DNA from: Fodinibius sp. Rm-B-1B1-1
GTDB lineage: Bacteria > Bacteroidota > Rhodothermia > Balneolales > Balneolaceae
Length of the DNA: 64,000 nucleotides
Reading direction: 5' to 3'
Assembly (NCBI RefSeq): GCF_038594945.1
Contig: NZ_JBCFYD010000001.1
Location: forward strand, 1,426,001 to 1,490,000
Positions 5,771-7,724 of this stretch are shown here, in pieces; the stretch's first letter is position 1, and every line of letters begins with the position of its first letter. Position numbers and translations under genes: made by a program. The notes beneath the pieces are model-generated. The model worked only from the letters and a program-made list of their open reading frames with translations. It had not been told where the DNA came from and made no database searches.

Positions 5771-6727
5771 TTGAACCCAGTTTTGATCACGAATTCTTTT
5801 GTTCATTCAATTAAAATTCCTACGCCATTTGCCGTGGGAGATGTTTTTTGCTATCTGATTAAAGATGATAAGATAGTATTGGTTGATACCGGGCACCACG
5901 CTGATGACGCGTATGATTGTTTGAAAAAGGGGCTGAATGAGCATGAGGTAGAGATTGAGGATATTGACGAGATTTGGCTTACTCATGGGCATCCCGATCA
6001 CTATGGCCAAGCTGCGCTGCTTGCAGATCGTGCGCATGCGACGGTATTTGGTCATCCATTAGAGCGCGCAAATTTTGCTGGTAATGATGATGGTGAATTA
6101 TTCGAATATTTTTTTAACCGCCATAATATTCCCTCTGATTTTACTCGTCAGATGATAGAGCAGCTCGATTGGTTGCAGCAGTATCAGCTATCAATTGAGC
6201 CCGAATGGATACAAGAGGGAGATGAGTTAACAAGCGGAACATTAACTGCAAGTGTTCACCATACCCCGGGTCATGCTCCTGGACACGTAGCTTTTAAAAC
6301 TGATCAAGATGTTATCTTTGGCGGTGATCTTTTGTTGGGACACATTAGCACCAATGCGCTTATCAATTTTGACGTAGAAACGAATGAGCGAAATAAAAGT
6401 TTACTTCAGTATCGAAAGTCGCTACAATGGGTTCGTGAGCAGCATAAACTTGTGCTACCAGGGCATGGTAAGGTGATTGAAAATCCCAAAGTTGTGGCCG
6501 ACCACCATTTGAGTGAGCACCAAAAGAGGTACCAAAAAATTAAGCAGATACTTCAAGAAAAGCCGAGGACCTTACTGGAGTTATCATACGAAATGTTTGC
6601 TGATGCTATTAAGAATGGTGCCATTTTCTTGGTTTTGTCAGAAGTGCTTGGGTATTTGGATTGGGGGAGAGAAGAGGGTACTATTGAAGTTGATGAATCA
6701 AATATGAAGTATCGGGTGACAAACTGA
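5771..6727 (+). CDS. MBL-fold metallo-hydrolase
   Basis: Metallo-beta-lactamase-fold hydrolase, 318 aa. The metal-binding motif LTHGHPDHYGQ (HxHxDH, about residues 72-82), the later PGHAPGHVAF histidine, GGDLLLG (metal-bridging Asp) and PGHGKVI are all present, so the active site is complete. A C-terminal helical region (about 235-318) resembles the winged-helix-like tail seen in LACTB2-type hydrolases. The only plausible start is TTG at 5771. Candidate activities include thioester or RNA/nucleotide phosphoester hydrolysis, but the substrate cannot be inferred. The next gene starts about 170 bp downstream after a tandem repeat. Confidence 0.85.
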   Translation: MNPVLITNSFVHSIKIPTPFAVGDVFCYLIKDDKIVLVDTGHHADDAYDCLKKGLNEHEVEIEDIDEIWLTHGHPDHYGQAALLADRAHATVFGHPLERANFAGNDDGELFEYFFNRHNIPSDFTRQMIEQLDWLQQYQLSIEPEWIQEGDELTSGTLTASVHHTPGHAPGHVAFKTDQDVIFGGDLLLGHISTNALINFDVETNERNKSLLQYRKSLQWVREQHKLVLPGHGKVIENPKVVADHHLSEHQKRYQKIKQILQEKPRTLLELSYEMFADAIKNGAIFLVLSEVLGYLDWGREEGTIEVDESNMKYRVTN

Positions 6728-6803
6728 TTGGAATGTCCGATTTAAGTTAACATGGAATTTAACCCCTTCCATTTGACAATAAGGAAGCCAATACCCAGCT
6801 TGT

Positions 6804-6891
6804 AACTGACAACTGACAACTGACAACTGACAACTGACAACTGACAACTGACAACTGACAACTGACAACTGACAACTGACAACTGACAACT
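6804..6891. repeat. Heptanucleotide tandem repeat (AACTGAC), 12 copies
   Basis: Twelve perfect head-to-tail copies of AACTGAC occupy 6804-6887 with a partial AACT after, ending 3 bp before the ATG of the HIT-family gene at 6895. The array therefore occupies the position where a ribosome-binding site would be. Open frames across it on the minus strand (VVSCQLS repeats) are products of the repeat, not genes. Heptameric arrays of this kind are well known in cyanobacteria (STRR sequences). Confidence 0.97.
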
Positions 6892-6894
6892 ACT

Positions 6895-7293
6895 ATGTCT
6901 ACGATTTTTACAAAAATTATTGAAGGTGAAATTCCATGTCACAAGGTAGCCGAAACGGATGATCATATTGCTTTTTTGGATATCAATCCCATTGCTGAGG
7001 GGCATACCTTAGTAGTTCCTAAAAAAGAGGTTGATTACTTTTTTGACCTACCGGATGAGCTCATGCAGAGTACGATGTCAGTAGCCAAACATATCTCTCA
7101 TGCTATTGATGAAGCTTTGAATCCACTGCGAACAGGAGTGATTGTACAGGGGCTGGAAGTTCCGCATGCGCATGTACATCTTATTCCACTCTACAAAGAA
7201 GATCAGGTCATGGCATTAGGGCACAATGTTTCGGTTAGTGAAGAACGAATGATTGAATTGAAAGGAAAAATTACAGCCGAAATATCATTATGA
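6895..7293 (+). CDS. HIT-family (histidine triad) nucleotide-binding hydrolase
   Basis: Histidine-triad hydrolase of 132 aa, HinT-like; typical substrates are nucleoside phosphoramidates and adenylates. The N-terminal IIEGEIPCHKVAETDDHIAF segment and the triad HAHVHLIP (about residues 97-104) are clear. Its last codons overlap the aroQ start (ATGA, 4 bp), so the two are translationally coupled. The 12-copy heptamer array directly before the ATG leaves no recognisable Shine-Dalgarno, so copy number could affect expression of both genes (inference). Confidence 0.92.
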   Translation: MSTIFTKIIEGEIPCHKVAETDDHIAFLDINPIAEGHTLVVPKKEVDYFFDLPDELMQSTMSVAKHISHAIDEALNPLRTGVIVQGLEVPHAHVHLIPLYKEDQVMALGHNVSVSEERMIELKGKITAEISL

Positions 7294-7724
7294 AAGTATC
7301 GATCCTTAACGGACCTAATTTAAATATGTTGGGCAAACGTGATCCCAAACAGTATGGTACCGATACACTGAATGATATTGAACAGCTGCTTATAGATTCA
7401 TTTCCCAATCACGAAATGACTTTTTTTCAAAGTAATTTGGAAGGTGAACTTGTAGAGGCAATTCAATCGCTCATGGAAAGTGATGTCGATGGTGTTATTG
7501 CCAATTTCGGAGGATACTCACATAGCTCAGTTGCTATTCGCGATGCGCTTGATTTAATTGAAATGCCTATTGTGGAAGTACACCTTTCGAATATCCACGC
7601 GCGCGAAGAGTTTCGCGAACGTACGCTTACCGGAGCAGTTGTTGCCGGAATTATCACTGGGTTTGGGAAACAAAGTTATGTGCTTGGGGTACATGCCCTT
7701 GAAAAACTGGTTGGAGAAGACTAA
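7290..7724 (+). CDS. aroQ: 3-dehydroquinate dehydratase, type II
   Basis: Shikimate-pathway enzyme converting 3-dehydroquinate to 3-dehydroshikimate; small cytosolic dodecamer-forming family. The 144-aa length matches type II enzymes. Diagnostic segments are ILNGPNLNMLGKRDPKQYG at the N-terminus (catalytic Arg and lid Tyr), QSNLEGELVEAIQ, NFGGYSHSSVAIRDAL and EVHLSNIHAREEFR (catalytic His, substrate-binding loop). It overlaps the HIT gene by 4 bp. Confidence 0.95.
   Translation: MKVSILNGPNLNMLGKRDPKQYGTDTLNDIEQLLIDSFPNHEMTFFQSNLEGELVEAIQSLMESDVDGVIANFGGYSHSSVAIRDALDLIEMPIVEVHLSNIHAREEFRERTLTGAVVAGIITGFGKQSYVLGVHALEKLVGED

Follow-up and report, generated by a model that had tools for sequence, protein, structure and literature searches.

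A heptamer array filling the HIT-aroQ leader of a Fodinibius species probably belongs to a recurring class of leaders made by slippage

The array and its gene setting

The window, a stretch of 64,000 nucleotides from the salt-loving bacterium Fodinibius sp. Rm-B-1B1-1, carries on its forward strand the genes for a HIT-domain protein of 132 aa (6895..7293; PF01230, E 5.3e-21) and for AroQ, a type II 3-dehydroquinase (DHquinase_II) of 144 aa (7290..7724; PF01220, E 4.4e-49). Both members of this pair, which had been named in an original prediction made from the letters of the window, are real genes by Pfam, and the start of aroQ lies inside the stop codon of the HIT gene (ATGA) in all 12 genomes of the genus. 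The upstream neighbor, on the same strand, encodes a protein of the metallo-beta-lactamase fold (5771..6727; PF00753, E 6e-25), its start codon being uncertain. Between this gene and the pair, also on the forward strand, lie a -35-like box, TTGACA (6773..6778), and, exactly 17 nt after it, the -10-like hexamer CAGCTT (6796..6801), which has an A at position 2 and a T at position 6 and is a poor match as a -10 hexamer. Judged by its letters, TTGACA-N17-CAGCTT may serve as a promoter; a promoter consensus scan did not list the site.

An AACTGAC tandem array begins 31 nt after the TTGACA box and fills the HIT leader. It was delimited by Tandem Repeats Finder to 6804..6891 (forward strand), with a period of 7, 12.6 copies, 100% matches and no indels. 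Perfect repeats reaching to 3 bp before ATG 6895 had been predicted and were indeed found; the predicted span, 6804-6894, holds as far as 6891, its last three bases, ACT, being the non-repeat bases that separate the end of the array from the ATG. The array is far above chance expectation. A pattern of three AACTGAC units matched only at the HIT leader in the window's genome, the reversed-pattern control giving 0. No Rfam family was found within 6600-7100, and the RNA of the HIT array folds no more strongly than shuffled sequences (z -0.16).

Frame and ribosome binding

The AACTGAC array presents a TGA stop in all three frames every 21 nt, and it does not lie within an open frame. Phase variation by ON/OFF switching of the coding frame was ruled out on these grounds; the HIT array is no ON/OFF coding switch. 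Since the stops in all frames exclude frame switching, only graded effects, through leader length, spacing or promoter strength, are left.

The array had further been described as replacing the ribosome-binding region. This is correct as to position. It does not hold as to a Shine-Dalgarno sequence, which the leaders of the genus rarely carry: a Shine-Dalgarno 4-mer at -20..-4 was found in 52 of 477 genus leaders, against 28.7 in shuffles. The genus leaders are A-rich. Ribosomes of Bacteroidia are described as not using Shine-Dalgarno sites in the accessible part of PMC9976891, and translation initiation in the bacteria studied here likewise seems to be independent of them. A leader filled by an array would be tolerated because initiation here seems to need no such site.

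Nine array units were compared with other 7-mers for folding, and between a quarter and a half of all classes proved equally weak or weaker. A special lack of RNA structure was rejected as an explanation, these nine units being ordinary among 7-mers. For seven of the nine, the antisense array folds more strongly than the sense array.

The HIT leader in related species

Of 58 genomes searched, 55 gave a match, and in these the sequence upstream of the HIT gene was compared, with one genome per species. Twelve belong to the genus Fodinibius/Aliifodinibius of the family Balneolaceae, among them the window's genome (G000) and the isolates F. salsisoli (G007) and F. roseus (G011). An exact array occupies the HIT leader in 4 of the 12 congeners, with three different units: AACTGAC in G000 and, in 9.7 copies, in G009; CTGTAAC in F. 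salsisoli (5.9 copies); and a hexamer, CCGTAA, in F. roseus (15.8 copies). The other eight have no exact array of at least 3 copies at this leader, and the twelve 3.4-kb HIT neighborhoods of the genus contain no exact arrays beyond those of the HIT leader. The original prediction missed the arrays of other units at this leader in other species, as well as the arrays at other genes described below. G000 and G009 carry their arrays at the orthologous site, with an identical unit and the same flanks. The distance from TTGACA to the ATG differs between these two species by 21 bp, that is, by three units, in agreement with the 7-bp length steps that had been foreseen.

A TTTGAYA motif lies 61-138 nt before the HIT ATG in 9 of the 12 congeners and is absent in G004, G006 and G008. 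The distance from TTGAYA to the ATG is 61-67 nt in five array-free congeners (G001, G002, G003, G005, G010), whereas it is 76, 102, 123 and 138 nt in the four that bear an array; it is therefore the segment from the box to the ATG that is longer. The -10-like hexamer before HIT is CAGCTT in G000, G001, G005 and G009, CAGATT in F. roseus and CAGTTT in F. salsisoli.

In a tree of the HIT, aroQ and AAA-ATPase proteins the array-bearing taxa are scattered, and G000 groups with three array-free species (100/99), apart from G009. The AACTGAC unit shared by these two is therefore either ancestral and was then lost, or of two origins. Outside the genus, an AAGTAAC array, cut by a contig end, stands at the HIT leader of a member of the same family (G013). 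Less regular 7-bp repeats were seen within ~150 nt upstream of HIT in three genomes from other families of the order (G051, G053 and G054), the units of this set being GTCTTGT, GTCTCAC/GTCTGAT and AGTACAG.

Frequency of arrays in the genus and the phylum

Sampled DNA amounting to 1.264 Mb contained four exact arrays (period of 5-9, three or more copies). Two, the HIT array included, lie in 464 kb of the window's genome (the window and 400 kb of sampled stretches) and two in 200 kb of F. roseus, with none in 400 kb of G009 or 200 kb of F. salsisoli, the sampled stretches of the latter three leaving out their HIT loci. Of 931 sampled genes no shorter than 120 aa, two have an exact array at -150..+30: the HIT gene and, in F. 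roseus, a gene for an AAA-ATPase. At this rate, the finding of two further, different units among ten congeners (G000 and G009 set aside) has a p of ~2 x 10^-4, a figure of simple arithmetic drawn from related species and crude gene calls.

Period 7 shows no excess in the intergenic DNA of G000 or G009 and a slight one in that of F. roseus. As it is not raised in G000 or G009, a slippage bias alone fails to explain why these few genes are hit. No general heptad pattern was seen among the 477 leaders; in the 3' flanks there is a slight increase at lag 7 (0.286 vs ~0.27).

Across the phylum, AACTGAC arrays occur in 10 of 394 genomes. A forward orientation of these arrays as a phylum-wide rule was rejected, one of the eight loci examined outside the genus lying 43 nt before a forward start. 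In other Bacteroidota, AACTGAC arrays of 12 and 7+4 copies were noticed near a contig end, beside a run of T.

Arrays at other genes of the genus

Three further genes turned up repeatedly and were chosen after the fact, so that their counts are not a test. The AAA-ATPase gene has arrays in 4 of 12 genomes (CTGCTAA, CCGCTAA twice, CGATAAC), a gene labeled 'SDKK' has CCAGTAA arrays in 4 of 12 (13.6, 6.6 and 5.6 copies, and one interrupted by N), and a gene for an ABC-2-type permease has arrays in 3 of 11 (CTGACTA, CTGCTAA and CTGATAA, the last being equivalent to TAACTGA). In the AAA-ATPase leader, the seed CTGCTAACTGCTA of the array-free G009 stands against 6.7 copies of CTGCTAA in G001. In four species 'SDKK' begins with a TTG that immediately follows the array, and in three without an array it begins with ATG; the first 70 residues of its protein gave no Pfam match. 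No functional theme shared among the array genes was found, and most of those other than HIT and aroQ we take, from their sequences, to be housekeeping genes.

A search for TAACNNN arrays, defined as four TAAC spaced by 7, gave matches in 12 of 12 genus genomes, with a reversed control of 0 in 11 and 3 in one. Of the 47 distinct arrays among the matches listed, 20 are perfect and 27 degenerate, the HIT array of F. salsisoli not being included; the gene edges around them come from a crude ORF finder (longest ORFs). None of these 47 listed arrays is contained in a predicted ORF. In 26 of them a forward start codon lies no more than 13 nt from the array end; another 10 adjoin, within 6 nt, the stop codon of an opposite-strand gene, and the remaining 11 show neither arrangement.

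A TTGAC anchor and a dispersed head

In 14 of the 20 perfect arrays among the matches listed, TTGAC or TTGAT lies 27-30 nt before the array. These arrays had been collected without reference to TTGAY, and simple arithmetic gives an expectation of ~0.3 by chance. TTGAY occurs at 27-30 nt in none of the 27 degenerate arrays listed, and at 29-31 nt in all four HIT arrays. The perfect arrays mostly extend to the gene edge. Upstream of genes in general, TTGAC shows no sense-strand enrichment (108 sense, 98 antisense), and these counts did not support TTGAC as an ordinary promoter of the genus.

When arrays were disregarded and TTGAC-N18-CAGCCT was searched for, at least 31 matches were obtained in 10 of the 12 genomes (reversed control, 13), and 10 of 30 loci examined pass directly into a period-7 array. 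A 42-nt sequence model of this head, R1, built from 19 sites, matched 12 times in F. roseus, 11 times in F. salsisoli, 8 times in G005 and once each in G009, G001 and G003 (weak). At E<=0.05 it had no match in the window's genome or in five other congeners, nor, under stricter filters, in any of 56 genomes outside the genus; the window's HIT leader shares only TTGACA-N17-CAGCTT with the R1 head. An array comes next in 18 of 30 R1 loci examined, with eight units in all, a count that is not independent, many of these loci having also built the model. In eight of the 18 a forward start lies no more than 12 nt from the array end, seven abut an opposite-strand stop and three do neither. One pair of F. 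salsisoli copies agrees fully from the head through the array, but for only 2 nt farther upstream, which suggests the copying of a short element. At five loci the head and its 7-bp array face an opposite-strand stop codon, as possible antisense promoters.

Explanations for the array

The explanation we propose sets out from the position of the arrays, their recurrence, the turnover of their units and their fixed offset from a TTGAC box. The array in the window is probably a heptamer microsatellite made by slippage that has grown to fill the HIT-aroQ leader, a member of a lineage-wide class whose effect would be absent or modest and graded. The resident element TTGACA-N17-CAGCTT, which stands just before the array, would be a promoter; from a short seed, we infer, the array would have expanded by replication slippage, filling the leader up to the start codon, and it would be transcribed as part of the HIT-aroQ leader. 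The Fodinibius class consists of perfect 7-bp arrays (once 6-bp) that recur at a few leaders or gene edges, at a set distance from a TTGAC box, with unit and copy number changing between species. The most likely consequence would be none, or a modest, graded effect of leader length or of the initially transcribed sequence on HIT/aroQ output, the predicted length-dependent tuning of the pair being a possible form of it. Against a leader function, some arrays abut the stop codons of opposite-strand genes, and such arrays of the same make weaken a purely translational reading.

A stronger version, in which slippage in an array abutting the -10 box and 5' UTR would step HIT-aroQ output in the manner of hmw1A, is unlikely in our estimation. 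The predicted layout does match that of hmw1A, where a 7-bp array lies over the P2 -10 box and in the 5' UTR (PMC8262952, in the part accessible), and copy number differs by whole units between species (12.6 vs 9.7). However, HIT and aroQ are housekeeping genes and not surface antigens, and the eight congeners without an exact array at this leader speak against such a switch as well. We would give still less credence to a translational or RNA-binding regulator of the kind put forward for the TAACTGA repeats of Beggiatoaceae, which would here read AAC/TAAC heptads of the leader. Such binding sites would be consistent with the TAAC or CAAC within most units, with the (TAACTGA)8 array of F. roseus and with the presence, among the TAACNNN arrays listed, of a forward start no more than 13 nt from the array end in 13 of the 20 perfect and 13 of the 27 degenerate ones; but 5 of the 20 perfect and 5 of the 27 degenerate arrays listed abut an opposite-strand stop, the same R1 head is followed at the same position by units such as CTGATAG, TCCTGAC and CTAAATA, and leaders at large have no heptad excess.

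The dispersed heads lend themselves to a different account, which we put forward tentatively and hold to be improbable. The promoter-like head (AATTAATCCTTGACA-N17-CAGCCT, ~41 bp) would be, in part of the genus, a dispersing mini-element with an interchangeable 7-bp tail, copied to new gene edges, where the tail would grow and shrink until it meets coding sequence and so provide a slippage-tunable leader for the gene or for the antisense side of its neighbor; in the case of the window's HIT array, that growth process would have acted on a resident promoter. An assembly artefact or chance is hardly credible: several of the compared genomes are metagenome bins, but HIT arrays are present also in the two named isolates, F. 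salsisoli and F. roseus, and a perfect AACTGAC array with the same flanks stands at the orthologous site of a second species.

Relation to known repeats

Seven is the favored unit length of the intergenic STRR sequences of cyanobacteria. Heptanucleotides are also prominent among the long simple sequence repeats of Mrazek (2007), as summarized in the accessible part of PMC4679880; these share with the Fodinibius arrays the favored unit length of seven and the intergenic site, and differ from them in that no fixed promoter-like anchor is described for them there.

The accessible part of PMC4679880 (MacGregor 2015) describes TAACTGA repeats that precede start codons in Beggiatoaceae, in Cyanobacteria and in five Bacteroidetes, so that the similar cyanobacterial arrays invoked in the original prediction do exist, and in Bacteroidetes as well. 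A translational binder (of the S1, Csp or Csr families) or genome rearrangement was proposed for these repeats, which show 7-nt indels between close strains and form long arrays in some. The window's array has this layout, with CAACTGA as sense unit, 3 nt before ATG 6895 and with no Shine-Dalgarno sequence. Like MacGregor's repeats, the arrays are forward heptamers a few nt from a start codon, over the expected ribosome-binding site, with varied functions downstream. The unit CAACTGA/AACTGAC is one base off TAACTGA, of which arrays occur elsewhere in the genus; in MacGregor's genome CAACTGA is rare as a repeat, with 3 doublets in the account accessible to us. That account reports one unit in 169 short sets (2-6 copies), in contrast to the few long arrays with interchangeable units in Fodinibius, and the many copies of one unit per genome are replaced in the window's genome by a single AACTGAC array. 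Moreover, the Fodinibius arrays are TTGAC-anchored and recur at orthologous genes with replacement of the unit, whereas MacGregor's sets are not so described in that part of the paper, where no mention of a TTGAC-box offset, of orthologous unit replacement or of a dispersed head was found. A literature search found no paper on Fodinibius repeats or promoter-anchored unit turnover. By sequence, the window's array is of MacGregor's kind with a unit one base different, and its anchoring to a promoter-like box and its unit turnover appear to be new.

According to the accessible part of PMC8262952, more copies of (ATCTTTC)n at hmw1A/hmw2A of Haemophilus influenzae mean less transcript. What the two would share is a 7-bp array starting at a -10 box and located within the 5' UTR, both features being predicted in the present case, where CAGCTT is weak; unlike hmw1A, an adhesin gene with a shown copy-number effect, HIT and aroQ are housekeeping genes. 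In uspA2 of Moraxella, an AGAT array in the 5' UTR has a measured optimum of 18 copies (via PMC4679880, in part). There too a tandem repeat of variable copy number lies between promoter (here putative) and start codon, but it is a tetranucleotide and the product a surface protein.

Why many bacterial microsatellites have a 7-bp unit, some of them at start codons, is presented as an open point in the accessible part of PMC4679880. If upheld, the combination of a fixed box offset, an end at the gene edge and a free unit would tie the process to transcription initiation and not to a sequence-specific binder, and F. roseus and F. salsisoli, as named isolates, would offer test systems.

Other TAAC heptads

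Several degenerate TAACNNN arrays are arms of long AT-rich palindromes (GTTANNN ... NNNTAAC; 8 loci), some of which sit between the stop of one gene and the start of the next. In two species, a TAAC heptad array abuts the 3' end of genes that are presumably DAHP-synthase-like; the window's species has a perfect array there and F. salsisoli a degenerate one.
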